From assembly GCA_905233765.1 (NCBI GenBank), contig CAJOCU010000002.1, positions 62,001 to 126,000 of the forward strand: a stretch of DNA of 64,000 bases, given 5' to 3'. Position numbers and translations under genes: made by a program. Below, in pieces: positions 5,058 through 49,198 of this stretch. Under the pieces are notes generated by a model, which worked only from the letters and a program-made list of their open reading frames with translations, was not told the origin of the DNA and did not search any database. Positions within the stretch are counted from its first letter, which is position 1; every line of letters begins with the position of its first letter. Source of the DNA: an uncultured Bacteroidaceae bacterium (lineage in GTDB: Bacteria > Bacteroidota > Bacteroidia > Bacteroidales > Bacteroidaceae).

Positions 5058-5090
5058 TGTAAAATGAATTGATAAATGTGTTTCTGGCGA

Positions 5091-5118
5091 CAAAAGTAAT
5101 AAAATTATTTCACATCAA
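5091..5118 (-). promoter_or_regulatory. Possible promoter before the secreted hydrolase
   Basis: On the minus strand TACTTTTG (complement of 5091-5098) matches the Bacteroidetes -7 box TAnnTTTG. A TTG lies at the complement of 5116-5118 with a short 17-base spacer. It would give a leader of roughly 25-30 bases before the start at 5057 and let the hydrolase be transcribed apart from the upstream flippase and glycosyltransferase. Confidence 0.4.
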
Positions 5119-8698: not shown

Positions 8699-8728
8699 TT
8701 GTGGTAGTTAATATTTGTTGTAACTTTG
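8699..8728 (+). promoter_or_regulatory. Promoter of the fasciclin/SusC/SusD operon
   Basis: TTG at 8699-8701, a 19-base spacer and TAACTTTG at 8721-8728 match the Bacteroidetes sigma factor consensus (-33 TTTG, -7 TAnnTTTG). It predicts a leader of about 95 bases before the start at 8829, containing a small GGGG-AAAT-CCCC hairpin at 8741-8752. No further promoter of this quality was found inside the seven-gene run, which supports a single transcript. Confidence 0.7.
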
Positions 8729-8828: not shown

Positions 8829-11800
8829 ATGGAAAACAGTATTCTCAAACGAAGACTCGCAAAAGATGCGAGTTCAGCGTTTGCTGCTCTCTTGCTGCTT
8901 GGTAGCATGTTGAGCATTTCGTCGTGTAAGGACGAATTGCTGACAGGTATGCCTGAGTGGCTTGGTAGCAGCATCTATGAAGAGCTGGAGGAACGTGGTC
9001 AGTTCACGCAAACCCTTGCGCTGATTAATGACCCCGACCTCGCAGATGCACATTATCCGGAGTTGCTTCGTCTGACGGGTAGTATGACGGTCTTTGTGGC
9101 TGACGATGCCGCGTGGAGTCGCTTTTTGTCAAAGCGAGGCCTTTCATCTGTGTCGCAACTGTCAAAAGCTGAAAAGAAGACTTTGTTGAAAGCCTCAATG
9201 ATCAACAGCGCATATCTGATTGAACTTCTGGATAATGTACCCAACGGTTCTACCGACCCTTCAGAAGGTGCCTGTATGCGTCGTGAGTCTCGTATGGAGT
9301 TAGACGACTATATTCCAGTCATGAAAGCAGCAGATTTTCCTGTCGTCAACGAAAACCGTCGTACGGACGATGGAGCACAGATTGACTATTGGGCAGATGT
9401 TCGTGATAAGGAAAGCATAAAAATTTATAAAGATGCCACCGTTGCGCCGATGGTGCACTTTCTGCCTCAGTTCATGTCGCAGAATGGTATTACGGACGAT
9501 GATTTGTCGCGCATTACCAACGGAGCTTCCAATTCAACCGATCGCAGCTATATTAATGGTCAGCCCATTTCGGTGAATGATGGCCGCTGGTCTCAGGATG
9601 CAGGAAAAGCTTTTTTGCAGGATATCACTTGTCAGAATGGTTATATCCACGTTCTGGATGAGGTTCCGGAAGCCCTGCCTAATATGGCTGAAATTATTCA
9701 TTCCAAGCCTCAGTTCAGCATTTTCAGTGAACTGCTGGATCGTTTTAGCTATCCGCAACTCTACAATGTCATCACCAATGAAGATGGTACGCGCGATACA
9801 TTCTACACGAAACGTTACTTTAATTCCTCCCAGAACCATGGCCTTGCAGCCTATACTCCTAAAGGTGGTGTATCTACAGAGGTCATCAACCGCCTAGGCT
9901 CTTCTGGGTCGAGTGGTGGCTACGATCCAGGGTGGAATCAATATGTCCTCTATACTGGAGATGGTCATATCTCCATGTCTAATGATGCAGCAGCGATGTT
10001 TGTTCCCACCAACGAAAAAATGCAGGAGTACTTACATGGTGATGGTTCTGTTATTGGTGCCAAGTATGGCTACGATTGGACGAAAGTACCTGATAATCTC
10101 GTGATACCCTTCTTGGACAATTGTATGCAGACTAGTTTCCGCAGCACCGTTCCTAGTAAATTCAAGGGCGTTAAGAACACGGCTTCAGACGATATGGGCC
10201 TAACGACAGGCGATGTGGATAGCTGTTTCCTTGCATGCAATGGAGCTGTGTATGAGCTAACCAGTGTCTTTGCGGCGCCTAAGCACCAGTCTGTTAGTTT
10301 CCCCGCCCTGCTGTTTGCCGATGAGAAGGAAGAGGCGAAAAAGATGCAAATCGCTAATCGTATCATTACATACGACCCCACTGCAAATGAAGTCTCTTCA
10401 ACCGTAAAAGCAGCATGGAGGTTAAATGAGTTTGATGCTTATTTGAGCTCCATGAGCAGTACATATAGTTTCTTGCTCGGTACCGATAAGGCCTTTGGTT
10501 TTTATATTGACCCATATTCCTATCTGTCAGGAGAGACACACACTGCTTACGAATTCTATATAGATGGTAAGAAAACAGATCAGCCTTTATATGTATATGC
10601 TTGGGAACTTGACGAAGAGGATAATATGGTCAAGAAACTTAACAAGGCTCCTGATATTCATACATTCGCCAATCGCCTTTATGATATATTGGATAACAGC
10701 ATTGTCGTGCATGGGCAACGTCCCTCACAAGCTATGCATCCTGGTCAGACGGTCTATCAGACGAAGGCGGGTGGTCCCATCATTGCAGAGTTCTCAGGCA
10801 ATGCCGTCACAGGTCTCGCTGGTTCCTATCAATACAAGAAGGGAGTGTTCATTCCCGTTACACCTGAAATGACTTTTGACATGACAGATAAGGGTAACGG
10901 TATTACCTATGTTTTGAGTGCACTCCCTCAAAGTACAACAACAGCTCCTTATCAGTTGATGACTGATATTCTTGCTCATCCTGAATATACCTCTTTTGCT
11001 CGCCTGTTGACAGAAGCCTCTTTTGTGGAAGCAGACGAGATACTGGATGAGCATCCAACGATTGGCTATCCAATCACCCTTTTCGGTAACTACCATTACA
11101 CGGTGTACGTCCCAAAGAATTCTGAAATAGATGCATTGGTCAATGACGGCAAACTGCCCACTTCCGAACTGATGCAGGAATGGACTCTGTTCCAGAACGC
11201 ATTGTCTGAATACGCCAGCACCATCTTACCGACTATCATTGATGAAAAAGAGCAGGAAGAACGTCTGAAAGAAATTGAAGAATTGGATGCCTTGGCGACG
11301 AAACGCATTGGAGAAATGCAGGATGTTATCGACAATTTCCTTCGTTTCCACTTCCAAGATGGAGCCCTATACATTGGTGGTAATGACACTACAGGTGTTT
11401 TCGAGACATCTGCTCTCGATCCTCAACTGGATCGCTTCCGTCGTCTAAATGTTACGGTGAGTGGCAATTCCTACCATATTCAAGTTCCCGGGACAGGCCT
11501 GATGGCCAATGTTATCAACGATGGTTTGCACAGCAATCAGATGTCTCGCCAGTACCTGTTCGGCTCTACAGCCGTATTAAAAGACGATGGCTCTTTTGAC
11601 CATTGGTCATATCCTCGAGACATCTTCAGTTCGTCCTATGTCGTGACACATCTGATTGATAGGGCGCTGGTCTATTCTGATGACCAATTCCTGCCTAAAG
11701 GCTTCCCGGCACCCGAGTATCCGGAATGGCTGCCTGTTCCTGATGAGCCAGAGCCAGAACCGGATCCTGTGCCCGCCGGAGCAAAAAGGCGTACGTCCAA

Positions 11801-11831
11801 AGTCTCACCTAAAAAGTTCTATAGAAGATGA
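8829..11831 (+). CDS. Fasciclin-repeat (FAS1) surface lipoprotein, 1000 aa
   Basis: Predicted lipoprotein with an N-terminal signal and lipobox ending ISSC (C33), followed by KDE; acidic residues at this place are part of the surface-export signal in Bacteroidetes. The mature protein has about four FAS1-like segments: around 50-290 (TVFVADDAAWSRFL, closing YIHVLDEVP), 390-510 (AMFVPTNEKMQEYL), 540-700 and 735-960 (YTVYVPKNSEIDALV). Each shows the beta strand / FxPTxxA-like start and a closing strand. A Pro/Glu-rich stretch and a basic tail end it. FAS1 domains are adhesion or ligand-holding folds; no enzyme motif is seen. It is first in the operon and overlaps the following susC by ATGA, which suggests coupled translation and a shared complex. 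Ligand unknown. Confidence 0.85.
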   Translation: MENSILKRRLAKDASSAFAALLLLGSMLSISSCKDELLTGMPEWLGSSIYEELEERGQFTQTLALINDPDLADAHYPELLRLTGSMTVFVADDAAWSRFLSKRGLSSVSQLSKAEKKTLLKASMINSAYLIELLDNVPNGSTDPSEGACMRRESRMELDDYIPVMKAADFPVVNENRRTDDGAQIDYWADVRDKESIKIYKDATVAPMVHFLPQFMSQNGITDDDLSRITNGASNSTDRSYINGQPISVNDGRWSQDAGKAFLQDITCQNGYIHVLDEVPEALPNMAEIIHSKPQFSIFSELLDRFSYPQLYNVITNEDGTRDTFYTKRYFNSSQNHGLAAYTPKGGVSTEVINRLGSSGSSGGYDPGWNQYVLYTGDGHISMSNDAAAMFVPTNEKMQEYLHGDGSVIGAKYGYDWTKVPDNLVIPFLDNCMQTSFRSTVPSKFKGVKNTASDDMGLTTGDVDSCFLACNGAVYELTSVFAAPKHQSVSFPALLFADEKEEAKKMQIANRIITYDPTANEVSSTVKAAWRLNEFDAYLSSMSSTYSFLLGTDKAFGFYIDPYSYLSGETHTAYEFYIDGKKTDQPLYVYAWELDEEDNMVKKLNKAPDIHTFANRLYDILDNSIVVHGQRPSQAMHPGQTVYQTKAGGPIIAEFSGNAVTGLAGSYQYKKGVFIPVTPEMTFDMTDKGNGITYVLSALPQSTTTAPYQLMTDILAHPEYTSFARLLTEASFVEADEILDEHPTIGYPITLFGNYHYTVYVPKNSEIDALVNDGKLPTSELMQEWTLFQNALSEYASTILPTIIDEKEQEERLKEIEELDALATKRIGEMQDVIDNFLRFHFQDGALYIGGNDTTGVFETSALDPQLDRFRRLNVTVSGNSYHIQVPGTGLMANVINDGLHSNQMSRQYLFGSTAVLKDDGSFDHWSYPRDIFSSSYVVTHLIDRALVYSDDQFLPKGFPAPEYPEWLPVPDEPEPEPDPVPAGAKRRTSKVSPKKFYRR

Positions 11832-14800
11832 AAGCACTGAAATTATTTTTGACGATGGGCCTAATGCTAGTCTCTTCACTGGCTATGGCACAAATCAACC
11901 GCATCAGCGGTACGGTCAGTGACGACTTCGACGTTCTGCCAGGTGTGAATGTGGTGGAAATTGACGCATCGAACCGTATGGTCAATGCCACCGTGACAGA
12001 TATGAATGGTAACTTCGTTCTGCCTATCAAAAGCCAAAAGAACAAGGTGAAGTTCAGTTATATGGGCTTTGTGACGCAAGTGCTGCCCATTAATAAAAAC
12101 GTCTTCAAAATCAAGATGTCCGAGAATGCCAAGCAGTTGCAGACTGTAGAGGTAAAAGCAAAAAAGAAGCTGAAGACATCCGGATTGGCTATCCCCGAAC
12201 GTGAAATCAGTTTCTCGCAACAGAGTATTTCCGCGAAGGAGTTCGAGGGGCTCGGTATCACTTCTGTCGATGAAGCGTTGCAGGGGCGTATCGCAGGCCT
12301 GGACATTGTGCAGAACTCTGGTGACCTTGGCTCTGGTTCTTCCATGCGTCTGCGTGGTGCTTCAACAGTTTCTACGCTCACGAGCAATGAGCCGCTGATC
12401 GTGGTGAACGGCAATGTCTGGAATGTGGACATGAGTGATTTCGACACCGCTACGGCCAACGATGAGAAGTTCGCGCAGTTACTCAACGTGAACACCGAGG
12501 ATATTGAGGATATCAAAGTCTTAAAAGATGCTGCCGCAACAGCTATTTGGGGCTCTCAAGGTGCGAATGGCGTGATTGAGATTACCACGAAACGTGGTCG
12601 CAAGGGCGCACCGCAGGTGAGTTACTCCGGTAAGTTCACGATGACCCACCAGCCTAAAGGTATGGAACTGCTGACGGGTGATCAATATACCATGCTGCTG
12701 AAGGAAGCTTACTTCAATCCCACACAATCTACGCTCATCTCCAACATCCCGGAGTTGAACTATGTGGAGAGTGATTCCGAGTTCTTGATGTTCAACAAGA
12801 ACACCGACTGGGTGGATCTTGTGAGCCAGAACGGCTTGCGCCAGAATCACTACATCAGTGTATCTGGTGGTGATGACAAGACACTGTTCCGCATCTCCGG
12901 TGGTTACGACCACGAGACAGGTACAATCATCAAGCAGAAGTTGAACCGTTTCTCGACGCGCATGGCTCTCGACTATTATGTCAACGACCGCATCAAGATT
13001 ATGTCCAACTTCGCGTTGACCTACACAAAGAACAACCGTAACTACGATGGTCTGCTGGCTATCGCTCGAACGAAGATGCCTAACCTTTCTCCTTACCGAT
13101 ACGATTACAATGAGAATGGTGAAGAGTACAATACCGGCGAATACTACATTGTTCCCGACTACGCCTTTACGAATCATGGCGACGCTCGCATCGTGGGCGG
13201 CACAAGTCCTTTTGCCGATCGTTTTAAAGACCAGCGCGAGTCCCATAACCCGTTGGCATCTGCTGAATACGCGAAAAACGAGCAGACCACTTACGACATT
13301 ACGCCTGAGTTGGAACTGGAGTACAAGTTACTTGGCTTGGATGATAATTCTCACCAATTGCGCTATAACGGTCGTGTGGTGATGAACGTCTATAACGACT
13401 ATACCGACCAGAGTTTCCCTCGCTCTTTAGTAAGTACACCTTATTATAATAATGGTTCTGCCTATAGCTTTAGCCGTAAGAATCTAGCCTTCACGACCAC
13501 CCATACGCTGACCTTCCAGCCTCATTTCAAGAACGAGGATCACTACCTTGTGGCATTGGGCCGTTTCCAGCTGGTCAGCGGCAGCTCCAGCAGTCAGAGC
13601 ACCAATGTCTATCGTCTGCCTAGTTCGTTGGAGACGGTCACAGCAGGTGCATATCCCAGCGGCATGGGTAGCGGCTTCAACGAATGGCGTAGTCTCTATT
13701 ATACCTTCTCAACGCACTATTCTTATAAGAGTCGCTATAGTCTCGCTTTCTCTATGCGCCTGGATGCTACGACCAAGTTCGGCGAGAACAACCGTTGGGG
13801 ATGGTTCCCTGCCATCTCAGGTCGTTGGAATATCATTGACGAGCCTTGGATGAAGTGGATGCGTGATAAGGCTAAGATGACGATGCTCAGTGTCCGTCCA
13901 GGTTGGGGTTGGGTCGGTAATCCGCCTACTGCTGACTATCTCTATATGAACAGCTTCTCTTTGGGCGCTCCTTATTTGGGAACCTATGCGATGAACCCGA
14001 ATGGTCTGAAGCTGACTCAGCTGAAATGGGAGAACAAATTTACATGGAACATCGGTTTCGACATCGGTTTCTTTGAAGACCGCTTGAAATTCGTCTTGGA
14101 ACTCTATCATCAAACAACGAAAGACATGCTGATGGCAAGGGCGGGTATTCCCAGTTCCAATGGCTGGAGTAGCCTGAGCTATCGTAACGTTGGTGATATG
14201 GTCAATAAGGGTTGGGAGTTCCAAATCTTGGGTGAGCGCCTTCTGAAGAAGGGTAAGTTCTATCTCGATGTGAATGTGAACTTTGCCAACAACCGTAATG
14301 TGATTACAGAGATGGACCCCCTCATCCTGGAGACCTTGAACATTGACTGGGAAGAGAAAAACCGCAGTGTACTGCAACGTGTACAGGTGGACAATCCCTT
14401 TGGTTCCATCTACGGCTTCCGCAGCAAGGGAGTCTATCAGTATTCCTTTAAGACTGCTCAGGAGATTACCCGTGGCAAGATGCCCGCAGCTCTGAAAAAC
14501 CAAGGCTTCAACAATCTGCAAGACTGCCTTGATGCCGGTATCACCTTCCCTGTTGCTGTTAATGCTGACGGCCAATACATTAAGGATGCAGAGGGGAATC
14601 CCATCCAGCAACGCTTCGCATATAAGGATGGGAATCGTAAGGGCTATGGTTTCAAGGGCGGCGATGCCATTTACGAGGATGTGAATCACGATGGTAATAT
14701 CAACCAACTGGATATCGTGTATCTGGGTAACTCGCTACCCAAACTAACGGGCGGTTTTGGCTTCAAGTTGCATTACGACCGTTTGACACTGAATGCTCAG

Positions 14801-15241
14801 TTTAACTATCGTGTGGACTATGATATCTTGAATATGGCCCGTTTGGATATGGAGGCCATGACGAGCAACAACAACCAGAGCCAGGCCGTCAATTACCGTT
14901 GGCGTAAGGAGGGTGATGTCACTACAATACCCCGCGCCCTAAATGGCGGCGCAGAGAACTCCACGAACTACAACACCCTCGTTAGTGATCGTTTTGTGGA
15001 AGATGGCAGTTTCCTTCGCTTGAACTACCTGCAACTGAGCTATAGTTTCGACCCGAAGTTGTTGAAGAAATGGCACATGAAGCAGCTTAATATCTATGCC
15101 AGCGCAAACAACCTCTTCTGCCTGACGAAATACACGGGCGTGGATCCCGAGATAGGTTATGGCGGCTATGGTGTCACCACCGACAACAACAAGACTCCGC
15201 GTTCGAAATCCTACACTGTAGGTATCACCATTGGTTTCTAA
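11828..15241 (+). CDS. SusC/RagA-family TonB-dependent outer-membrane transporter (first copy)
   Basis: Outer-membrane beta-barrel of 1137 residues that, with SusD, imports oligomers using TonB energy. Seen: signal peptide ending AMAQ (about 22), a carboxypeptidase-D-like beta domain (about 25-100, GTVSDDFDVLPGVNVV...GNFVLPI), a TonB-box-like QTVEVKAKK, and the RagA plug signature SVDEALQGRIAGLDIVQNSG with VLKDAAATAIWGSQGANG. A 22-strand-type barrel region follows, ending in an aromatic terminal strand (SYTVGITIGF). Its ATG overlaps the stop of the fasciclin gene by 4 bases. Substrate is not predictable: no enzyme or regulator lies beside it. Confidence 0.95.
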   Translation: MKALKLFLTMGLMLVSSLAMAQINRISGTVSDDFDVLPGVNVVEIDASNRMVNATVTDMNGNFVLPIKSQKNKVKFSYMGFVTQVLPINKNVFKIKMSENAKQLQTVEVKAKKKLKTSGLAIPEREISFSQQSISAKEFEGLGITSVDEALQGRIAGLDIVQNSGDLGSGSSMRLRGASTVSTLTSNEPLIVVNGNVWNVDMSDFDTATANDEKFAQLLNVNTEDIEDIKVLKDAAATAIWGSQGANGVIEITTKRGRKGAPQVSYSGKFTMTHQPKGMELLTGDQYTMLLKEAYFNPTQSTLISNIPELNYVESDSEFLMFNKNTDWVDLVSQNGLRQNHYISVSGGDDKTLFRISGGYDHETGTIIKQKLNRFSTRMALDYYVNDRIKIMSNFALTYTKNNRNYDGLLAIARTKMPNLSPYRYDYNENGEEYNTGEYYIVPDYAFTNHGDARIVGGTSPFADRFKDQRESHNPLASAEYAKNEQTTYDITPELELEYKLLGLDDNSHQLRYNGRVVMNVYNDYTDQSFPRSLVSTPYYNNGSAYSFSRKNLAFTTTHTLTFQPHFKNEDHYLVALGRFQLVSGSSSSQSTNVYRLPSSLETVTAGAYPSGMGSGFNEWRSLYYTFSTHYSYKSRYSLAFSMRLDATTKFGENNRWGWFPAISGRWNIIDEPWMKWMRDKAKMTMLSVRPGWGWVGNPPTADYLYMNSFSLGAPYLGTYAMNPNGLKLTQLKWENKFTWNIGFDIGFFEDRLKFVLELYHQTTKDMLMARAGIPSSNGWSSLSYRNVGDMVNKGWEFQILGERLLKKGKFYLDVNVNFANNRNVITEMDPLILETLNIDWEEKNRSVLQRVQVDNPFGSIYGFRSKGVYQYSFKTAQEITRGKMPAALKNQGFNNLQDCLDAGITFPVAVNADGQYIKDAEGNPIQQRFAYKDGNRKGYGFKGGDAIYEDVNHDGNINQLDIVYLGNSLPKLTGGFGFKLHYDRLTLNAQFNYRVDYDILNMARLDMEAMTSNNNQSQAVNYRWRKEGDVTTIPRALNGGAENSTNYNTLVSDRFVEDGSFLRLNYLQLSYSFDPKLLKKWHMKQLNIYASANNLFCLTKYTGVDPEIGYGGYGVTTDNNKTPRSKSYTVGITIGF

Positions 15242-15253
15242 TCTCTCATCCTA

Positions 15254-17065
15254 ATGATACATCTATATATGAAATACATCGAACAATCCATTGTCCGTCT
15301 CGCGTGCATTGCATGTGTCGGACTATTCTTGGTCAGCTGTGGCGATTTCTTGGAAATCACGCCGCGCGACATGGTTACGGAGGATAATTTCTGGGATGAG
15401 AAAACCGACGTGGATCAAATGGTCACAGGTTGTTACACCGCCATGCAAGGTTACGATTTCATCTCTCGCTGTGTGGTGTGGGGTGACCTGCGTGGCACAG
15501 ATATTGATGGAGCTTCTAATATTGAGAATTATGACGATCTCTATCAGGCGCTTGTCAACAACTTGATGCCATCCAATCAGTTCACCAGCTGGTCTTCCTT
15601 CTATTATGTGATCAATAAGTGCAATACCATTATCCGTATGGCACCAGAGGTCCATGAGAAAGACCCCGCATACCGTCAAAGTGATTTACAGGCAACCATT
15701 GCTGAAATGACGGCCTTGCGTAGCCTTTGCTATTGGTATCTCATCCGTGCTTTTGATGCCGTTCCCTTCTATCGTGATGCGGTACAGCAAGAAGATGAAG
15801 TGAAGACTTTGCCGGTCACATCCTTTGAGACAGTACTGAACGAAATCATCTCTGACTTGGAGGCCGTGAAGCCCAATGCCCTGGATCATTATGCTGCGAT
15901 TTCTGGCGACGACGGTGATCTTGGCAGGTATAATAGCAATTGTAATCGTATCACACGTTCTGCCATTAATGCGATGTTGTGTGATATGTACCTATGGCGT
16001 GGCGACTATGACAAGGTCATTTCTTGTGCTGATGAGATTCTGGCAGTAAAGAAGAGTGACTATGAACGTAACTACGGGAAGTCTATGATGATGGGCACAT
16101 TTGCCCCGGAGCCGATAGCAGCTTCGTCTGGTAACTTTACTACATACCTGTATAAGAATACGCAAACCAATGGTAATATCGTTTTTAATGCAATTTTCGG
16201 GACTGGTAATAGCTTTGAAAGTATTTTTGAGCTATCATTCAACAACACAGGTATCGGTAGCCCTTATGTAACTAGCTTGGCCCTTGCAACCCTTTATGGA
16301 ACGGGTAATAAGAATTCGAAATATGGTCCGACCAGTGCAGACGGATTCTTAGTACCAACGACTGTCATCATGCAGGAAGCACGTGGAGACAATGGGAACT
16401 GGTCGATATTCCGTGGTTCGTCGGATACACGTTTCTATTGTAGCATGCATGCCACAGATAAGAACTACACGGAAGCCTCTATCCGTAAGTATGTAGCTTA
16501 CATATTCCAGGTCTCTGCTCAAAGTACTAAATATATCAATTATGAAGAATCCGGGAACTTCCTGCTTCCGGAAGCGATGAATCGCAATTGGATTTTCTAT
16601 CGTCTCACAGACATCATGCTGATGAAGGCTGAAGCCTATTTGATGAAGAGTGGAGCTGATGCATCGGATGCCAACAAGGCATTATGGGCAAAGGCTTTTG
16701 ATCTAATTGAGGTTGTGGCCAACCGCTCAGTTACTGCGACTTCCCAACAGTTGAAAAACACGGATGCCGCCGTTGCCAACCGCGAAAAGCTGCAGACGTT
16801 GTTACGCAACGAACGTCGTGCCGAGTTGTTGTTTGAGGGCAAGAGATGGTTTGACATGATTCGCTACAGCAAACAAGCCGGTGGAGATTTAAAGGACTTA
16901 AATGGCATCCCTGCGAAGTGTGGCTCACGCGGTTCCTCTAATCCCTTCCCCAGTTGGGCTCATCTATTCTGGCCTTACAACAAGCAGGAGATTAAGAAGA
17001 ATCCGAACATGAAGCAAAAGAGTATCTACAACAAAGATACGGAAGATATCAGTATCAACAACTAA
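15254..17065 (+). CDS. RagB/SusD-family surface lipoprotein (first copy)
   Basis: Lid and binding partner of the SusC just upstream (12-base gap), 603 residues. Seen: lipobox LVSC followed by GDFLE; the typical SusD opening LEITPRDMVTEDNFW; the N-terminal helical TPR-like part with ALRSLCYWYLIRAFDAVPFYRDA; and the C-terminal RagB/SusD segment with YRLTDIMLMKAEAYL and ERRAELLFEGKRWFDMIRY. The start at 15254 is the longest ATG; an ATG at 15269 gives an equally good signal (MKYIEQS) and cannot be excluded. It is followed 10 bases later by a fasciclin lipoprotein gene. Confidence 0.95.
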   Translation: MIHLYMKYIEQSIVRLACIACVGLFLVSCGDFLEITPRDMVTEDNFWDEKTDVDQMVTGCYTAMQGYDFISRCVVWGDLRGTDIDGASNIENYDDLYQALVNNLMPSNQFTSWSSFYYVINKCNTIIRMAPEVHEKDPAYRQSDLQATIAEMTALRSLCYWYLIRAFDAVPFYRDAVQQEDEVKTLPVTSFETVLNEIISDLEAVKPNALDHYAAISGDDGDLGRYNSNCNRITRSAINAMLCDMYLWRGDYDKVISCADEILAVKKSDYERNYGKSMMMGTFAPEPIAASSGNFTTYLYKNTQTNGNIVFNAIFGTGNSFESIFELSFNNTGIGSPYVTSLALATLYGTGNKNSKYGPTSADGFLVPTTVIMQEARGDNGNWSIFRGSSDTRFYCSMHATDKNYTEASIRKYVAYIFQVSAQSTKYINYEESGNFLLPEAMNRNWIFYRLTDIMLMKAEAYLMKSGADASDANKALWAKAFDLIEVVANRSVTATSQQLKNTDAAVANREKLQTLLRNERRAELLFEGKRWFDMIRYSKQAGGDLKDLNGIPAKCGSRGSSNPFPSWAHLFWPYNKQEIKKNPNMKQKSIYNKDTEDISINN

Positions 17066-17075
17066 ATCCTATACA

Positions 17076-19220: not shown

Positions 19221-19265
19221 TTCGTAATATTTACTATTCAATAGATTCTATTTATTTACCAGAAT

Positions 19266-21218
19266 ATGAAAGCCAAGCAATATTTTAAAACATTAGCCGT
19301 GCTTGCAACCCTTCCGTTTTGGTCGCTGTCGTGTACAGATGCATGGGAGGACCACTACGGCGACGGTTCTACCGCAGGCACGACGGCAGACGCTCCTTCC
19401 TTACTAGAGCACTTGCAGGCCGATGCCGAGTTAGCAGAGTTCCTGCGAGTGGTAAAACATGTGGGGTATGACGCTGTTTTGACATCACCACAATCGCTCA
19501 CCTTGTGGGCTCCAGTCATTACTAAGGCACAGGCCGATAGTGTCATCGCCGTCTATGAAGCCCAAAAGCACGAGGTTGACAACAATGGCAACTTGCGCAA
19601 GGACAAGGACAACTATGCTATCACACAGTTCTTACAGAACCACATCGCACTAGCTGGGCGTTCTTGCAGTTCGCTGACCAACGAGTCCGTCCGCATGTGG
19701 AACGGGAAGTATATGACAATGACCGACAAGGACTTGGACGGTGTACCGTATGTAGCGAAAAACATTGTTGCTCGCAACGGCATCATGTATAAGTTGAAAG
19801 GAAAGGAAACGTTCTTCCCCAATGTGCGTGAAGCGTTGGAGCTGCAGGAAGAGTTGGACAGCGCCTCGCATTTCTTTAAGATGTTTGATGTTTACACGTT
19901 GGATGAGCAATCCTCAGTGATGCAGGACATCGTGGATGGCGAAATTGTCTATGCCGATTCTGTGATGACTCTTTCCAACGCCCTCTATGCTCGTTTGGGG
20001 TATATCCAGCGCGAGGACAGTTCCTATATCTATCTGGCAGCGAACGATGATGTCTGGAAACAGGAGTACGATAAATACCTTACGTGGTTCACCTATATCA
20101 ATGATAGCAAGATGGCCAATCGCGACTCATTGATTCAGCTGAATGCCCGCTATGCCATAGCCCGTGGACGTTTCTTCAATATCAACGACCAGAAGAACGA
20201 ATACAATGACTCCATCATCAATACACACCATGTGAACTCAAAGGATTATTATGGCCTGAACGTTTTCCAGAAGCCCAAACAAGAGAAGGGTATTCTGGCA
20301 GGGCTGACGCCTATTAAGTGCTCTAATGGCCTTCTCTACAAAGATGCAACTGGACGAATCGATGATTCCCTCACATTTACATACAAGCGTTACATCTCCC
20401 CGCTGAACAGGAATAACTATAAGTCTCGCTTGATTAAAACGGAATCATCAGGATCAAATGACACGTATAGTCCTCAGGTAGCTGTAACCACCCGTAACAT
20501 TGTAGAATCGACAATCCTCTATGGAGACCCCATAGTCGAGATTGACCCAGAGACAGGTGAGGAAGTAGTTTCCTATCCTCAAACAGTGGTGAAGTTCCCG
20601 GAGTTAAAAGACAAGCAATATGCTGAAATTCGTCCCGCCTCCTATCAAGGCGTCACCAACAACAAAACCAACCTCTACTTTTATTTACAAAACACGTTCT
20701 CTGGACTATACTACAATGTATATATGGTAATGGTTCCGGAATATGCCCGAGAGAATTACGATCCTGATGAGGTGTTGCCTTGTCCTTTCAAGGTTTATTA
20801 TAGTGAACGTGCACTCAATCCGACGACTGGTAAAATTGAGAAGGCAGACCCGGAATCCGGCGATTTCACTGCTGAAGAGAGTGTGAACGTACCGACCGGC
20901 GAGACGCATAGCTCCAACGCAACTACATTCTTGGCGTCGGGCACGGATGTCGATCTGATTTGTATCCAGAAGGCGGTTCCCACAGCAAAACACGGGCCTT
21001 TCAAGTATGCCTCGTATAACAGCTTTGCTTCCGTCAGCCCCACACAACGTTATCGAATTGAGACGACAGCAACCCCTATACAGCTGAAGAACAAGACGTA
21101 CACCAACGCTTTGCGCATTAACCGAATCATCTACATTCCGTTTGCCACAAAGGAAGAGGCTGAAGCGTTTGAACTGAATCCCTCTGATTTGTCTAACCTG
21201 AAAGAATACAAAGAATGA
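19266..21218 (+). CDS. Fasciclin-domain surface lipoprotein, 650 aa
   Basis: Lipoprotein with lipobox LSC (C23) followed by TDAWEDHYG, an opening common in Bacteroidetes fasciclin lipoproteins. One clear FAS1 domain (about 38-185, SLTLWAPVITKAQADSV, closing NGIMYKLKG) and a second, weaker one (about 190-360). The C-terminal 280 residues are beta-rich and end with an IYIPFATKEEAE strand; I do not recognise that part. The gene overlaps the second susC by ATGA, exactly as the first fasciclin gene overlaps the first susC. The 45-base gap before it is the longest in the operon apart from the leader, and I see no promoter in it. Confidence 0.8.
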   Translation: MKAKQYFKTLAVLATLPFWSLSCTDAWEDHYGDGSTAGTTADAPSLLEHLQADAELAEFLRVVKHVGYDAVLTSPQSLTLWAPVITKAQADSVIAVYEAQKHEVDNNGNLRKDKDNYAITQFLQNHIALAGRSCSSLTNESVRMWNGKYMTMTDKDLDGVPYVAKNIVARNGIMYKLKGKETFFPNVREALELQEELDSASHFFKMFDVYTLDEQSSVMQDIVDGEIVYADSVMTLSNALYARLGYIQREDSSYIYLAANDDVWKQEYDKYLTWFTYINDSKMANRDSLIQLNARYAIARGRFFNINDQKNEYNDSIINTHHVNSKDYYGLNVFQKPKQEKGILAGLTPIKCSNGLLYKDATGRIDDSLTFTYKRYISPLNRNNYKSRLIKTESSGSNDTYSPQVAVTTRNIVESTILYGDPIVEIDPETGEEVVSYPQTVVKFPELKDKQYAEIRPASYQGVTNNKTNLYFYLQNTFSGLYYNVYMVMVPEYARENYDPDEVLPCPFKVYYSERALNPTTGKIEKADPESGDFTAEESVNVPTGETHSSNATTFLASGTDVDLICIQKAVPTAKHGPFKYASYNSFASVSPTQRYRIETTATPIQLKNKTYTNALRINRIIYIPFATKEEAEAFELNPSDLSNLKEYKE

Positions 21219-24200
21219 AAGCGCTGAATTTATATTGTCTCTCTCTCCTTCTTATATTGCCTGCGGCCACGTTCGCCCAGGACGATATAACCGAGGATAC
21301 AGATACCGCAGTCGTACGGCATATCCGAAAGACGGCGAAGAAGCAGGAACCCACGCGCGAAATCAAAGGCCGAGTGGTCTGTCAACAAGGACATACTCCT
21401 CTAGCCGGTGTGCTGGTGCAGTCAATCATCGGCGAAGGCTATTCAACCCTCACCGATGAGAATGGCGATTTCACCATGAAGGTACCCCTTTACAGTTCTG
21501 CTGTGAACGTGACACTCCCTGGGTACAACACGGTTCGTGTTGGCTTGAATAAGAGTGGCGTGCTGCACGACATTGTCCTCCATAGCGAAGCAGCCCCCGC
21601 TTTCTATGTTGAAGATGATAACATCTTGAATGTGGCTCGCGCCACTGATTTTGAGTTTTCTAACGCTGTCAATATAGCCTCTGAGATTCAGAACCAGTTG
21701 GGAGCAGATGTGCTCGTCAACCAGCGCAGCGGCCTGTCAGGTGCTGGCAGCTATATGCAGGTGAGCGGCGTTGGTAGCTATATGGTCAACGCCCAGCCAC
21801 TGGTGGTGATAGACGGTGTGATCACAGACATGCAATACGGCCGTGAGATGCTCCACTCAGGCTTCTACAATGATGTACTGTCCAACATCAATGTCAACGA
21901 CATCAAAAGCGTGGAAGTTCTTAAGAACGGGACTGCTCTGTATGGTGCCAAAGGCGCCAATGGTGTGATTATCATCAACACCAAGCGTAACACGTCCTTG
22001 GCAACGCGCATTGCTGCGACGGCAAACGTAGGTGTAGAGATGGTTCCACGACACTATAGCATGATGGATGGCACACAGTTCAAGACTTATGCCAGTGATC
22101 TGCTAAGCACGACAGGAACAAAGCTGCAGACCTTCAAATTCCTTCGGTCTGACGATCCGAACTATTATTGGATAAATAAATACAACAATAACACAGATTG
22201 GACCGATGGCATTTTCCAAACTGCCATTAAGCAGAGTTATGGGTTGAGCGTTCAAGGTGGTGGCGAAGTGGCCAACTACATGCTTTCTATTGGATACAAC
22301 CATGGAACAGAGACCATTGAAGAGGCCAACTTCAACCGCTTGAATATTCGTTTTAACACGGATATTAAACTGTCCGATTGGGTTGGAGTACGCTTTGACG
22401 CATCGTTTAGCAACACCACACGCAAGCTCTACGATACAGGAACGCCTACAGACTACAACAACGGTACAATCACCTCTCTTAACTTCCTCAGCTATGCGAA
22501 AGCCCCCATGTTGAGCCCGTATAGCTTTGTGGCTGGAACCAATGGCCCTGGCGTGATTAGCGAAGCCCACTTAGATATTGAGCAGGAGGATTATCTTGCT
22601 GAGGTCTCGCAGATTAAGAACGACAACTATGAGCTAGCAAACCCGTTCGCAATCTTGGAATATGGTACAGCCCAGAATAAGAACTATTTTGACAACTCGT
22701 ATCTGAACCTTTCCATCACACCCTCTTGGAAGCCGAACAAGCACCTCTCATTCTCATCTCTTTTCAGCTACTCTTTGGTTAACACGAATGAGAAGTATTA
22801 CATTCCTACGAATGGTGTTCCAAATTTCCGTGTAGCTTCTCTCAATACCGGGTCTGAAAAGATGCAAAACATGATTGGCTCGCTTTACAGCAAACAAAAT
22901 AGCATCCTGAGCGACACCAAGATAGAATGGAAGAACCGCTATGATGGTCATAGCATTGACATCCTAGGAGGTTTTCGCTACATGAACGAGAGTTACTCGC
23001 TTACTCGCCAGACCGGTTTCAATACAGGTAACGACAAAACCCCGCTCATTTCCAGCACGGAGGAACGCTACCGTCGTGTGTTGGGCTCTGTCGAGAATTG
23101 GGCCTCAATGACGTGGTATGCCCAGGCCAAGTACAACTTCTCGAATCGCTACTATCTGCAGGCGGATATGTCAATGGACACGAGTTCACAGTTCGGCCAT
23201 AATGCCAAGAGCGGCCTGAAGCTATTCGGCGTCGCATGGGGTCTCTTCCCGAGCATTCAGGCAGGATGGGTGATGAGCAACGAGAAGTGGTTCGACGTGA
23301 AAGGCATCGACTACGTGAAGATCACCGCCGGCTACGGCCTTAGCGGTAACGATGCGTTGCCCTATGATGCTTCGCACAGCTACTTCAAGAGCAACCTCTT
23401 CCTTGGGCAGATTCCAGGCTTAAGCCTTGAGAACATCGGTAACACAGAGCTACAGTGGGAGACCACCCGCCGCCTCAACTCAGGTCTCGAAGCTCATTTC
23501 TGGAACAACCGCATCTCTGCTTCAATCAACTACTTCTACAGTTGGACTAACAATCTTCTCACCCTGCGCAGTCTGAACTTCCTCTCCGGTATCGACCAGA
23601 GCTGGAGCAACGGCGGAAGTCTCGAGAACAACGGCTTCGACGCTCACGTTGCAGCCCACCTCTATTCCAGCAATGACTGGAACTGGAGCCTTGGCGGAAG
23701 TGTCGGTCACTACGTCAACACGCTCACCGAGTTGCCTGACGGTGCGACCTACGAGGATCACCAGATTCTCGGTGCCACAATCCGCAGCGAAGTGGGACGC
23801 AGCATCAATAGCTTCTATGGCTTGCAGACGGCAACCACCAGTAATGGTACCATTGTTTATGCAACAGCTGAGGAAGCCGCTCGTGACGGTCTCTATCGTC
23901 TGCGCGCCGATGGTGTTACTAAGGACTATTTCACCAGCGGCGACGTGAAGTACGTGGATCAGAACCGCGACGGAAAGATTGACGACAACGACCGTGTCTT
24001 TATCGGCGATGCCAATCCCATCATTTATGGTAACCTTTGGACGAGCCTCAGCTACAAGCGTCTCACGCTCGACATCGGCTTCAACTACAGCCTCGGCGGA
24101 GACATCTACAACTACACTCGCCAGCAGCTCGAGAGCGGCAGTCGCTTCATGAACCAGACCACAGCTATGCTCACGCGCTGGAACCACGAAGGACAAGTCA

Positions 24201-24505
24201 GCGATATGCCACGTGCCGTCTATGGTGATCCCATGGGCAACAATGCCTTTAGCGACCGCTGGATCGAGGATGGCAGCTACCTGCGACTGAAGACTGTTAC
24301 ACTCAGCTACAAGCTCCCCATCAACAACACCTATATTCAGGGTATTACTGTGTGGGCCCAGGGCACGAATCTGCTCACCTTCACCAATTATCTGGGCTCC
24401 GACCCGGAGATGTCGATGGGCAATAGTGTCTTCTATCAAGGTATCGACCGTGGCTACTTGAGTTCCGGACGTATGTTCAACGTAGGTTTGAGAATCAACC
24501 TCTAA
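21215..24505 (+). CDS. SusC/RagA-family TonB-dependent outer-membrane transporter (second copy)
   Basis: TonB-dependent barrel of 1096 residues. Seen: signal peptide ending TFAQ, a charged stretch, a carboxypeptidase-D-like domain (about 50-125, IKGRVVCQQGHTPLAGVLV...GDFTMKVPL), a plug with NQRSGLSGAGSYMQVSGVGSY and VEVLKNGTALYGAKGANGV, and a barrel ending RMFNVGLRINL. It differs from the first copy through the plug and N-terminal domain, so it is not a recent tandem duplicate. Odd: from about 23100 to the end, codons become markedly C- and G-ending (ctc, agc, ggc, aac) compared with the AT-richer first two thirds, which suggests a mosaic gene. Partner: the SusD 39 bases downstream. Confidence 0.95.
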   Translation: MKALNLYCLSLLLILPAATFAQDDITEDTDTAVVRHIRKTAKKQEPTREIKGRVVCQQGHTPLAGVLVQSIIGEGYSTLTDENGDFTMKVPLYSSAVNVTLPGYNTVRVGLNKSGVLHDIVLHSEAAPAFYVEDDNILNVARATDFEFSNAVNIASEIQNQLGADVLVNQRSGLSGAGSYMQVSGVGSYMVNAQPLVVIDGVITDMQYGREMLHSGFYNDVLSNINVNDIKSVEVLKNGTALYGAKGANGVIIINTKRNTSLATRIAATANVGVEMVPRHYSMMDGTQFKTYASDLLSTTGTKLQTFKFLRSDDPNYYWINKYNNNTDWTDGIFQTAIKQSYGLSVQGGGEVANYMLSIGYNHGTETIEEANFNRLNIRFNTDIKLSDWVGVRFDASFSNTTRKLYDTGTPTDYNNGTITSLNFLSYAKAPMLSPYSFVAGTNGPGVISEAHLDIEQEDYLAEVSQIKNDNYELANPFAILEYGTAQNKNYFDNSYLNLSITPSWKPNKHLSFSSLFSYSLVNTNEKYYIPTNGVPNFRVASLNTGSEKMQNMIGSLYSKQNSILSDTKIEWKNRYDGHSIDILGGFRYMNESYSLTRQTGFNTGNDKTPLISSTEERYRRVLGSVENWASMTWYAQAKYNFSNRYYLQADMSMDTSSQFGHNAKSGLKLFGVAWGLFPSIQAGWVMSNEKWFDVKGIDYVKITAGYGLSGNDALPYDASHSYFKSNLFLGQIPGLSLENIGNTELQWETTRRLNSGLEAHFWNNRISASINYFYSWTNNLLTLRSLNFLSGIDQSWSNGGSLENNGFDAHVAAHLYSSNDWNWSLGGSVGHYVNTLTELPDGATYEDHQILGATIRSEVGRSINSFYGLQTATTSNGTIVYATAEEAARDGLYRLRADGVTKDYFTSGDVKYVDQNRDGKIDDNDRVFIGDANPIIYGNLWTSLSYKRLTLDIGFNYSLGGDIYNYTRQQLESGSRFMNQTTAMLTRWNHEGQVSDMPRAVYGDPMGNNAFSDRWIEDGSYLRLKTVTLSYKLPINNTYIQGITVWAQGTNLLTFTNYLGSDPEMSMGNSVFYQGIDRGYLSSGRMFNVGLRINL

Positions 24506-24508
24506 TAC

Positions 24509-24536
24509 TAAACGTTAAACGAGAAACGTTAAACGA
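24509..24536 (+). repeat. Four tandem heptamers of the AAACG type before susD2
   Basis: TAAACGT, TAAACGA, GAAACGT, TAAACGA in perfect 7-base phase, ending 8 bases before the ATG of the second SusD gene, where a ribosome-binding site would lie. Similar heptamers precede pheT, yebC and ettA. Confidence 0.85.
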
Positions 24537-24544
24537 CATAAGAT

Positions 24545-26800
24545 ATGAGACACTTCAAATATATCCTACCTTCCATGCTGATGGCCTGCGGCGCCACAGC
24601 TTTCGTGTCGTGCGATGATATGCTCGACCTCGGCAATGAAAACATTCTCTATACCAGCGACCACACACTACAAAGTGCAAACGACACCGTCAACACCTTT
24701 GTGGGCATTCTAGCGCAGTTGCAAAAAGTGGGTGTTCGCACCAACTTGTTCGGAGAGTTGCGTGGCGACCTGGTCGCTGTGACCTCAACGGCCAATAGCA
24801 ACCTTAAAGCAATTGCAGATTTCGAAGTGACGGACGACAACCCGTACAACAATCCACGTGACTACTACGCTGTCATCAACAACTGTAACTACTTCCTGGC
24901 AAAAGCCAACACTGATCTTTCAGAAAAACGCTATCAGAACGGAACCGCACAGGCGTACTTCGTTCTTCGTGCTGAAGCACTTGCTGTACGCAGCATTCGC
25001 GCTTGGCTTTACTTGCAGCTTGGACAGATTTATGGAACGAATATTCCGGTAGTTAAAGACCCCATCTTGTCCATGGAGGATGCTGATGAGCAGTTGACGA
25101 ATGCCAAGAAGATGGATTTGCGCCAAATCTGCGATGAATTCATTGCTGACTTGGAGCCCTACATTGATTGGGCTCGAGAGTATCTTTATCCCTATCACGG
25201 AAATCCTGGCCGTGAAGGCTACAACGGCACGATGCCGTCTCGTATGAGTGTAATCCCCATTCAGCTTGTGCTGGGCGACCTTTACTTGTGGAAGGCGTCT
25301 TTAGAACAGAATCCCGATATGGCGTTCCAGGCTGCGAAGTACTACTACGACTACCTCATCTGGACGCCCAATGCTCAGGGAAATACCATTGTCAACAGCG
25401 GTTATAAGCGCGTCAATATGACGGCGCCGTATCGCGACCGTTGGGAATTCACAGGTGGCAACTTTAACACCGATTCATGGTACAGCCAGGGCTCTATATG
25501 GTACCAGACCGGCGCCAACAGCTTTGGTGGTGCAGGTGACGAAGTCATATCTGCCATCGCAATGGACTCCGTTGTGAATGAGGGCCATTACAACGAACTT
25601 CTGCAGCTGTACTGCGTCAACGAGGAAACACAGGAGCCCGCCAGCTTCGTACCCTCACAGCCTTGTATCAACTACAGTAAGAGTCAGGTCTATGGCGACA
25701 TCTATCGGCCGGCAGGAACTAATGAGCCTCAGTTTATTAGGCTAGCACCCGAAGCCATTAGTGAGACCCTGCGCCAGCGCTATTTCGAAGGCGATATGCG
25801 TCTGGGCTGCAGCTATTCAAGCATAACGGCCGAAGGAACGGAGTACAAGGGCATCACCAAGTTCGCCAACATCTACCGTGAAGATGGTCGCATGAGGATC
25901 AGTTCCACGACCCGTGATATCATTGTATATCGAACCGGTGATATATACCTTCGTATGGCCGAAGCTCTCAATTATGCTGGCATGAATCATCCTGGCTATC
26001 AGAAGATGGCTTATTACATCCTCGCGTTAGGACTGGATGAATACGTCATGGAAGATTTAGTGAAACCTAATTGTAGCAAGGCGGACTCTACTGCTATTAG
26101 TTATTTCCGTTTCCCACGGGGTATCTTTACAACTCAGCTTTCGTCGCTGACTACAGAGAATCATCCTAATATAGATTATTACAGTGACCAGCGAACCTTC
26201 TATAACAGCGTTAACCAAATAGGTATTCATCAACGTGGTAGCGGTTTCCCCTTCTCCAATCCAGATTACTATCCCACGGATGCTGATCCCGATACCAGTG
26301 TAGATAGTTATCCAGAACAGCCAGCCAAATATGTGACTTGTTCTGGTACGGGTACGACCCTATTGAACAACCTCAAGAAGAACAATCCCACGCTTGTTGA
26401 CTCTCTTGAGACACGTGAGGGGATTCCTGCGCCTGAAACAGCAGGCTTAGCACCAGCCGTGATTATTGAATTGGTGAACACGTACAATGCCCTCATGATG
26501 GAATATAGCGATAAGTACCAGCGTAACTGGAAAGCACGTGAGAAGGGTTGGTATCAGAATCAGACCGTGCAGCTCAAGGAGCGCCAGTACGAGGTCGTTG
26601 ATAGTCTGCTTGACATTGAGTCTGCTTTGGAGACTTGTTTCGAAGGCTTCCGCTTTGGCTACTTGATGCGTGCAGCATATCGCCACAACGATCCCACCTA
26701 TCTGGCTAATCGAGTAGGTGAACGCAATCCCGCCCTTGTAGGCAAACTCACCAACAAGGACAATTGGTTCATCCGCTGGAAGGGACTGATAGGCAAGTAA
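24545..26800 (+). CDS. RagB/SusD-family surface lipoprotein (second copy, long form)
   Basis: Surface lipoprotein partner of the second SusC. Lipobox FVSC (C23) followed by DDMLD. SusD-like helical region with RAEALAVRSIRAWLYLQLGQIYG and a C-terminal part with YRTGDIYLRMAEALNYAG and a closing FRFGYLMRAAYRHNDPTYL. At 751 residues it is longer than usual SusD proteins (about 500-650); extra sequence sits between the two SusD parts and near the end (about 570-680). Last gene of the operon, closed by a strong terminator 24 bases on. Confidence 0.92.
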   Translation: MRHFKYILPSMLMACGATAFVSCDDMLDLGNENILYTSDHTLQSANDTVNTFVGILAQLQKVGVRTNLFGELRGDLVAVTSTANSNLKAIADFEVTDDNPYNNPRDYYAVINNCNYFLAKANTDLSEKRYQNGTAQAYFVLRAEALAVRSIRAWLYLQLGQIYGTNIPVVKDPILSMEDADEQLTNAKKMDLRQICDEFIADLEPYIDWAREYLYPYHGNPGREGYNGTMPSRMSVIPIQLVLGDLYLWKASLEQNPDMAFQAAKYYYDYLIWTPNAQGNTIVNSGYKRVNMTAPYRDRWEFTGGNFNTDSWYSQGSIWYQTGANSFGGAGDEVISAIAMDSVVNEGHYNELLQLYCVNEETQEPASFVPSQPCINYSKSQVYGDIYRPAGTNEPQFIRLAPEAISETLRQRYFEGDMRLGCSYSSITAEGTEYKGITKFANIYREDGRMRISSTTRDIIVYRTGDIYLRMAEALNYAGMNHPGYQKMAYYILALGLDEYVMEDLVKPNCSKADSTAISYFRFPRGIFTTQLSSLTTENHPNIDYYSDQRTFYNSVNQIGIHQRGSGFPFSNPDYYPTDADPDTSVDSYPEQPAKYVTCSGTGTTLLNNLKKNNPTLVDSLETREGIPAPETAGLAPAVIIELVNTYNALMMEYSDKYQRNWKAREKGWYQNQTVQLKERQYEVVDSLLDIESALETCFEGFRFGYLMRAAYRHNDPTYLANRVGERNPALVGKLTNKDNWFIRWKGLIGK

Positions 26801-26823: not shown

Positions 26824-26860
26824 GACATCGGGCACCTGTAAAAGTGCCCGATGTCGTTTT
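26824..26860 (+). terminator. Rho-independent terminator of the fasciclin/SusC/SusD operon
   Basis: Perfect 12-base arms GACATCGGGCAC and GTGCCCGATGTC with an 8-base loop, followed by GTTTTCTT. It lies between convergent susD2 and glyA; on the minus strand it is followed by a weaker T-run, so it may stop both transcripts. Confidence 0.92.
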
Positions 26861-49097: not shown

Positions 49098-49135
49098 AAA
49101 TTAGTATTCTTTTTACGATTAATTGGTTGAAAGAG

Positions 49136-49166
49136 TTGCAAGAACATCGATTACGCTCTATATTTG
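49136..49166 (+). promoter_or_regulatory. Promoter of the second CotH gene
   Basis: TTG at 49136-49138, a 20-base spacer and TATATTTG at 49159-49166. It lies downstream of an in-frame ATG at 49127 and 32 bases before the ATG at 49199, which fixes the start of the CotH gene at 49199. Confidence 0.65.
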
Positions 49167-49198
49167 CAGCGGAAATAATGATAAATGCATATCTGGAT

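Follow-up and report, generated by a model that had tools for sequence, protein, structure and literature searches.

A seven-gene cassette at positions 8829-26800 of the window, a 64,000-nucleotide stretch (G000:C2:62001-126000; GenBank contig CAJOCU010000002.1) of the 2.63-Mb, 52-contig genome, listed as 87% complete, of an uncultured Bacteroidaceae bacterium, is proposed to encode machinery that takes up plant cell-wall oligosaccharides across the outer membrane with no enzyme of its own; its most likely cargo is pectic, of the rhamnogalacturonan-I (RG-I) type. The cassette combines three fasciclin (FAS1) proteins with two SusC/SusD (SusCD) pairs, in the order FAS1a-SusC1-SusD1-FAS1b-FAS1c-SusC2-SusD2. 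It is probably a glycan importer in which the FAS1 proteins serve as binding proteins. That the ligand in the window's clade is of RG-I type stands at about an even chance, and the complete reading, an enzyme-free importer of pectic RG-I-type oligosaccharides with FAS1 binders and enzymes acting in trans, is put forward with evenly balanced confidence.

In the proposed mechanism, FAS1a, FAS1b and FAS1c would be surface lipoproteins acting as surface glycan-binding proteins (SGBPs). The tandem FAS1 domains of FAS1b and FAS1c would form a stalk or docking scaffold and their C-terminal CBM35-like module would hold the glycan, FAS1a being a longer FAS1 chain. Two different SusC/SusD pedal-bin transporters, powered by TonB, would receive the captured chains. 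The cutters (PL11 and PcRGLX-type RG lyases, GH88/105, GH2, a GDSL esterase) and an L-rhamnose isomerase would be encoded elsewhere in the genome and act in trans. Judging from the sequence, the seven genes are presumably co-transcribed, and their products may assemble into a complex.

Conservation of the seven-gene cassette

The sequence-only reading of this DNA had described seven densely packed FAS1, SusC and SusD genes in this order, and open reading frame (ORF) coordinates and Pfam/NCBIfam matches bear it out: all seven lie on the + strand with intergenic gaps of -4 to 45 nt. The search for the ordered cluster in relatives, which that reading had called for, finds the full order at 65 of the 80 named loci (61 exact, three with a second FAS1b, one interrupted by a called ORF), with median intergenic gaps of -1 to 38 nt. 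The flanks covered at each named locus extend ~2 kb before the cassette and ~3 kb past it. Ten of the 15 partial loci are contig pieces below 18 kb carrying several cassette genes; L085 and L091 hold a lone FAS1b, and one or two genes are uncalled as ORFs in L081, L088 and L089. At L081, and at the same place in genome G146, FAS1a and SusC1 may be broken or misassembled, since a 1519-aa minus-strand ORF is called there. L085 and L091 are devoid of SusCD in the stretch covered, and a GH31 gene follows the FAS1b of L091 after 52 bp. Tandem double FAS1b cassettes occur in L112, L115 and L106, and also in L273 (family f6, genome G1175).

A FAS1b protein search matches 144 of 201 genomes of the window's family, many of the matches being paralogues, and the FAS1b profile matches 46 of 395 genomes of the phylum. 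The FAS1a profile is found in 9 of 395 genomes of the class, the window's own family included, and in two other families: f4, with 25 of 146 genomes (31 places), and f6, with 6 of 199. The seven genes were checked at 11 of the 31 f4 places, where nine cassettes are complete, one (G982) is devoid of FAS1b and one (G963) is cut by a contig end; all eight f6 places examined are complete, one with an extra FAS1b. Together, f4 and f6 thus give 17 complete cassettes at 19 places.

A second, divergent seven-gene cassette lies elsewhere in the window's genome (L004/L005, G000:C1, about 127773-146427), with a GH2 beta-galactosidase 147 bp past it and a GH88 domain ~11 kb downstream. The seven proteins of the window are 63-88% identical to those of the nearest named relative, L057, and dN/dS between the two is 0.049 for SusC1 and 0.064 for SusC2, dS being saturated for the other five genes. 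Chance clustering is ruled out by the conserved gene order and by dN/dS, with dS saturated in five of the seven genes. The record titles of 30 of the 80 loci name ruminant, rumen or horse, and 21 more carry RUG or RUI names, which we take to be rumen series.

FAS1 and transporter proteins

FAS1a and FAS1b belong to the FAS1 family by Pfam, and FAS1c by alignment and fold. Conserved alignment columns of FAS1a (NG-Y/H motifs at 270, 471 and 690, plus H941) suggest four FAS1 repeats. The window copy of FAS1c has no Pfam match of its own; that it is not a fasciclin is ruled out by its aligned relatives, of which 27 of 34 match Pfam Fasciclin, and by its FAS1-like model. Those FAS1c relatives that bear a name among the matches listed are all called hypothetical. 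Structure comparison of AlphaFold models predicts, for both FAS1b and FAS1c, tandem FAS1 domains followed by a C-terminal CBM35-like module, and the CBM35 structures matched by FAS1b include uronic-acid complexes. The fold comparison also listed phycobilisome, viral p15, Cry toxin domains and others; the interpretation is based on the FAS1 and CBM-like matches.

The FAS1 proteins had been thought to replace the usual surface enzymes and glycan-binding proteins. They do stand where SGBPs usually stand; that no glycan-binding protein is present is doubtful, given the CBM35-like modules predicted at the C-termini of FAS1b and FAS1c.

Lipoboxes are found across relatives in 50 of 71 FAS1a, 74 of 82 FAS1b and 58 of 77 FAS1c ORFs, with at least two acidic residues just past the lipobox cysteine in 32, 52 and 29 of these ORFs, respectively. 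Such acidic residues, a mark of surface export, occur in 0 of 76 SusD1 ORFs but in 31 of 71 SusD2 ORFs. The FAS1 lipoproteins are putatively surface exposed.

Both SusCD pairs are recognised by family models: the two SusC proteins match TIGR04056 (bit scores in Table 1) and both SusD proteins score over a Pfam cut-off. The PDB sequence closest to SusC1 is 8aa4, ahead of RagA and BT_2264. SusD1 weakly matches NanU, at 42.8 bits against a cut-off of 425.

Neighbouring genes and the two sister clades

The claim of an enzyme- and regulator-free locus holds among the window neighbours scanned, a part of the window's ORFs: neither a degradative carbohydrate-active enzyme (CAZyme) or other degradative enzyme, nor a hybrid two-component system (HTCS), extracytoplasmic function (ECF) or other local regulator is found there. 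Since local enzymes and a local regulator, the marks of a canonical polysaccharide utilization locus (PUL), were looked for among the neighbours scanned at the window locus and not found, the cassette is classed with the SusCD/PUL kind but not as a canonical PUL. The Pfam scan identifies panB upstream, and convergent genes for serine hydroxymethyltransferase (SHMT), pyrI and pyrB as well as a penicillin-binding protein (PBP) downstream.

The SusC1 tree (a quick method, LG+G4, with long branches flagged; 93 rows, 88 of them different, identical duplicates included) splits the cassettes of the window's family into clade I, whose 43 rows include the window, and clade II, with 39 rows. The two are sisters, with the f3, f4 and f6 rows as outgroup; the second cassette in the genome of the window belongs to neither, its placement being unsure. 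The clade II cassettes include those of Paraprevotella xylaniphila (L111) and Prevotella communis (L119). Pfam flank scans in these clades covered ORFs free of unknown bases, and, the flanks being short, the numbers of enzymes counted in both clades are minimum values.

Clade I shows that the cluster is not always accompanied by CAZymes. Query proteins for RG-I degradation, GH43, GH3, GH92, GH95 and GH10/28 match 0 of 183 flank ORFs at the 43 loci, and among 103 ORFs scanned with Pfam no GH, PL or HTCS family appears in the 25 of 75 families listed; PanB (13) and IleS-type (8) ORFs do. By row, panB and/or ileS accompanies 25 of 43 cassettes, and 18 have neither in the flank covered. The exceptions are GH16 upstream in L083, the sole CAZyme seen, and in L080 a downstream ORF of a repeat/CBM-like cluster lacking a Pfam family.

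The idea that the system is intrinsically enzyme-free is not supported: in part of clade II, cassettes stand with GH43, GH51, GH3, GH10/28, GH2 or HTCS-type genes, and in f4 with RG-I genes (see below). By neighbour clusters, 12 of the 39 clade II rows have a GH, eight more an HTCS-type protein and nine more DUF6055; eight have only a repeat/CBM-like ORF, one only an HEGIH protein and one nothing. Among 96 flank ORFs, Pfam gives at least 16 DUF6055, 8 Reg_prop, 6 GH43, 4 HisKA, 3 CBM6, 2 GH3 and 1 GH10 (25 of 68 families listed). Further neighbours, seen in single scans, are GH51, GH2 and an HTCS-type protein directly after SusD2. Outside the tree, GH76 neighbours L122 and GH31 neighbours L091. 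The enzyme-free state hence marks one lineage, and the cassette as such can be part of a PUL.

The DUF6055 proteins flanking part of clade II (L099:19129-20370, L102:1-2298 and relatives) carry HE[IL]GH in 19 of 19 ORFs. An upstream family in the same loci carries HEGIH in 14 of 16, the other two being short pieces. Both groups are possibly metallopeptidases.

Linkage to RG-I degradation

In f4, query proteins detect at least one RG-I/rhamnose gene at 24 of 31 FAS1a places and at least two kinds at 20, within at most 20 kb on either side (four places have one flank only and one has a 1.3-kb upstream flank). Random control region pairs, hand-placed in ten of the f4 genomes, show one kind in two of ten and two kinds in none; five of the ten pairs held a SusC. 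The null is here uniform placement, other SusCD loci being a stricter control. Both control matches are RhaD-type only, and the RhaD query can match ordinary dehydrogenases. A profile test within 25 kb of FAS1a gives PL11 at 8 of 31 places (0.40 expected) and RhaT at 10 (0.46 expected); among the matches listed, GH88/105 reaches at least 12 (0.95 expected) and the control GH92 at least 1 (1.16 expected).

Pfam names the neighbours at individual f4 loci. In G207, a PL4-type RG lyase comes directly after SusD2 and is followed by GH2. In G233, the neighbours are RhaT, a class II aldolase/dehydrogenase, an isomerase-like TIM barrel and an FGGY kinase. A SASA/GDSL esterase neighbours the cassette in G350, and GH106, PL22, GH88, GH95, a GDSL protein, an FGGY kinase and an isomerase-like protein do so in G451. 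The single f6 place covered by the query-protein test, in G1208, has GH106, PL22 and GH88-type genes.

The genome of the window encodes RG-I functions away from its SusC genes: two PL11 proteins with RGL11_C (one on contig C23 beside GH97, the other on C34 beside a GDSL protein and GH2), a PcRGLX-type protein on C5 and, on C16, RhaA together with a class II aldolase and a major facilitator superfamily transporter. Profiles for SusC and the other cassette proteins find nothing in the stretches around these genes (L177-L182). Surveys of PF18370, GH88, RhaA and RhaT covered 13 genomes of the window's family, 12 with a cassette and one (G030) with a lone FAS1b; PF18370, an RG-I lyase domain, and GH88/105 are each present in all 13.

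Several results weigh against the RG-I reading. The linkage is seen in f4 (24 of 31 places) and not in the window's clade, where no RG-I gene is found in the flanks (0 of 183 ORFs, 43 loci), and the RG-I genes of the window's genome are unlinked to the cassette; the check for all seven genes in f4 covered 11 of its 31 places. The link is weak in f6, which within 25 kb gives PL11 at 0 of 8 places, RhaT at 0 of 8, GH88 at least 1 of 8 and the control GH92 at least 2 of 8. RhaT is present in two of the 13 own-family genomes and missing in 11, and RhaA is present in nine; the four without RhaA include two with panB-linked cassettes (G188 and G146), an argument against rhamnose use being an invariable component of the system. 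The similarity to CBM35 is one of fold alone and, for FAS1c, is near the common level. FAS1b of f4 and f6 is shorter (555-597 aa) and matches the C-terminal module weakly; this module is therefore possibly restricted to the family of the window. Another glycan may be indicated by clade II, which stands nearer to the window than f4 does and has links to GH43, GH51, GH3 and DUF6055. SusC proteins above the cut-off number 12 in G110, 14 in G078 and 10 in G188, two being in the cassette in each case, and other importers hence exist there.

Alternative ligands

The strongest competitor, to which we give clearly less credence than to an RG-I ligand, is the same machine working on other plant glycans: clades I and II would import arabinan, arabinogalactan or hemicellulose fragments, with RG-I as substrate only in f4. 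It draws on the clade II flanks (at least six GH43, two GH3 and one GH10/28 and eight HTCS-type Reg_prop proteins among 96 ORFs, plus GH51), on the sister position of clades I and II, on the GH2 after the second cassette of the window's genome, and on the four of 13 genomes without RhaA. The RG-I context in f4 argues the other way, as do the PF18370 domains and GH88/105 kept in all 13 own-family genomes searched. GH43 and GH51, moreover, could act on RG-I side chains too.

The sequence-only reading had suggested a peptide, glycoprotein or host matrix component, captured by the FAS1 proteins; the uptake would resemble that of peptides by RagAB. This seems improbable. FAS1 proteins do mediate interactions between the cell surface and the exterior, according to passages of PMC6032426, and the HE[IL]GH and HEGIH neighbours of clade II (19 of 19 and 14 of 16) are possibly metallopeptidases. 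However, no peptidase appears in clade I flanks among the 25 of 75 families listed, FAS1b and FAS1c carry predicted CBM35-like modules, pectin linkage is seen in f4, and the SusC closest to SusC1 in the PDB handles dextran, RagA and BT_2264 scoring lower. With no positive evidence for a peptide or matrix ligand in clade I, a plant pectic glycan fits better.

Slightly less credible still is a family binding acidic glycans in general (sialic acid, uronic acids), its ligand being set by the context. A related FAS1-SusC-SusD-FAS1-SusC-SusD set lies in G467 (L169/L170) beside a BNR sialidase, a DHDPS-family lyase and NanM, SusD1 weakly matches NanU, and CBM35 matches include uronic-acid complexes. 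Against this, the SusC branch of G467 and G202 is long and distant (1.57), and two such loci were seen. The set also occurs in G202 (L171/L172), with neighbours similar by eye; it may serve sialic acid uptake.

A dedication to pantothenate or another cofactor, panB being directly upstream in the window and a panB-like ORF in 18 loci, is very hard to credit and the panB link is rejected as positional: 10 loci have ileS as neighbour, two of them together with panB, 18 of 43 clade I rows have neither gene in the flank, and panB is found in no clade II row.

Relation to known systems

No description of the seven-gene cassette was found in the literature searched. With Sus-type PULs, the cassette shares SusC/SusD pairs with surface lipoproteins, and its relatives sit with CAZymes and HTCS-type regulators. 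The window cassette differs by having no enzyme or regulator, FAS1 proteins instead of SusE/F-type proteins, and a fixed order of seven genes that includes two dissimilar SusCD pairs.

RagAB is likewise a SusCD-type transporter, whose cargo is peptides and which is not known to have FAS1 partners; RagA scores below the dextran and levan SusC. The levan and dextran utilisomes of Bacteroides thetaiotaomicron, as presented in parts of PMC7618045, also join SusC-SusD to accessory surface lipoproteins, one of them glycan-binding, and 8aa4, closest to SusC1, is the SusC of the dextran utilisome. Their accessories are a GH and an SGBP, whereas the cassette lacks a GH and would bring together three FAS1 proteins with two SusCD pairs in a putative complex. 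A FAS1 domain protein is drawn in a SusD-containing, cellulose/hemicellulose-like PUL of Gramella portivictoriae (PMC4891872). There, the FAS label stands in a figure legend, with GH5, GH9 and GH26, and the section concerned describes no cassette or function. Segatella bryantii TF1-3 and Xylanibacter ruminicola KHP1, rumen Prevotellaceae too, have "unk" PULs that were missed by prediction and most induced on rhamnogalacturonan, according to excerpts of PMC11107044, which also report a SusCD pair without co-localised CAZymes.

Features of the window

The coordinates of the cassette and its control signals are given in Table 1. The perfect terminator claimed 3' of the operon corresponds to a terminator-like perfect stem of 12 bp. 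For the promoter, described as strong in that reading, there is a candidate that follows what we take to be the Bacteroidota consensus.

Table 1. Features of the FAS1-SusCD cassette, in window coordinates
Feature	Position	Strand	Evidence
Candidate Bacteroidota-type promoter, TTG-N19-TAACTTTG	8699..8728	+	sequence pattern alone
FAS1a lipoprotein, 1000 aa	8829..11831	+	Pfam Fasciclin 5.7e-8; lipobox SSC-KDE in translation
SusC1 TonB-dependent transporter	11828..15241	+	TIGR04056 673 bits; closest PDB sequence 8aa4
SusD1 lid lipoprotein	15254..17065	+	Pfam SusD_RagB 2.2e-20
FAS1b lipoprotein, 714 aa	17076..19220	+	Pfam Fasciclin 7.7e-9; AlphaFold mean pLDDT 81.8
FAS1b residues 39-443, two FAS1 domains (predicted)	17190..18404	+	
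FAS1b residues 452-703, CBM35-like beta-sandwich (predicted)	18429..19184	+	
FAS1c lipoprotein, 650 aa	19266..21218	+	AlphaFold mean pLDDT 86.6; no own Pfam match
FAS1c residues 372-633, CBM35-like beta-sandwich (predicted)	20379..21164	+	
SusC2 TonB-dependent transporter	21215..24505	+	TIGR04056 546 bits
SusD2 lid lipoprotein	24545..26800	+	Pfam SusD-like_3 3.3e-8, SusD_RagB 3.6e-5
Terminator-like 12-bp perfect stem	26824..26855	+	

Six more window ORFs, between 34991 and 54505, encode PheT, two CotH proteins, MutS2, a peptidase M3 and a phosphomutase. The CotH-kinase proteins (38320-40455 and 49127-51817, both +) carry a ricin-type lectin in one case and an F5/8 type C domain in the other. 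By eye, G053 too has a CotH-like ORF, close to its clade II cassette. A 1129-aa ORF without a Pfam family (1704-5093, -) lies between glycosyltransferase-like genes and a flippase-like gene.

Implications

A broader view may be advanced tentatively, as a possibility more doubtful than the RG-I reading itself: FAS1 proteins would be a Bacteroidota class of surface glycan receptor, forming a flexible capture array that serves two SusCD gates and that, in one Prevotellaceae lineage, was cut loose from the PUL as a core enzyme-free importer. If true, each operon would supply the array with as many as eight FAS1 domains together with two CBM35-like modules, and the two gates might split the cargo, e.g., into RG-I backbone and side-chain fragments. 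The importer would then serve scattered lyases in trans and would account for two of the three SusC proteins above the cut-off in one 96% complete genome (G038). Cassettes hold over half of the SusC in two of five genomes, namely the window's (4 of 7, in its two FAS1 cassettes) and G038 (2 of 3), and between 2 of 10 and 2 of 14 in the remaining three. PUL prediction needs CAZymes beside SusCD, so a conserved seven-gene uptake unit unlinked from enzymes is easily overlooked. Bacterial FAS1 proteins would gain a concrete, testable role in nutrient capture, with pectin indicated as the ligand.

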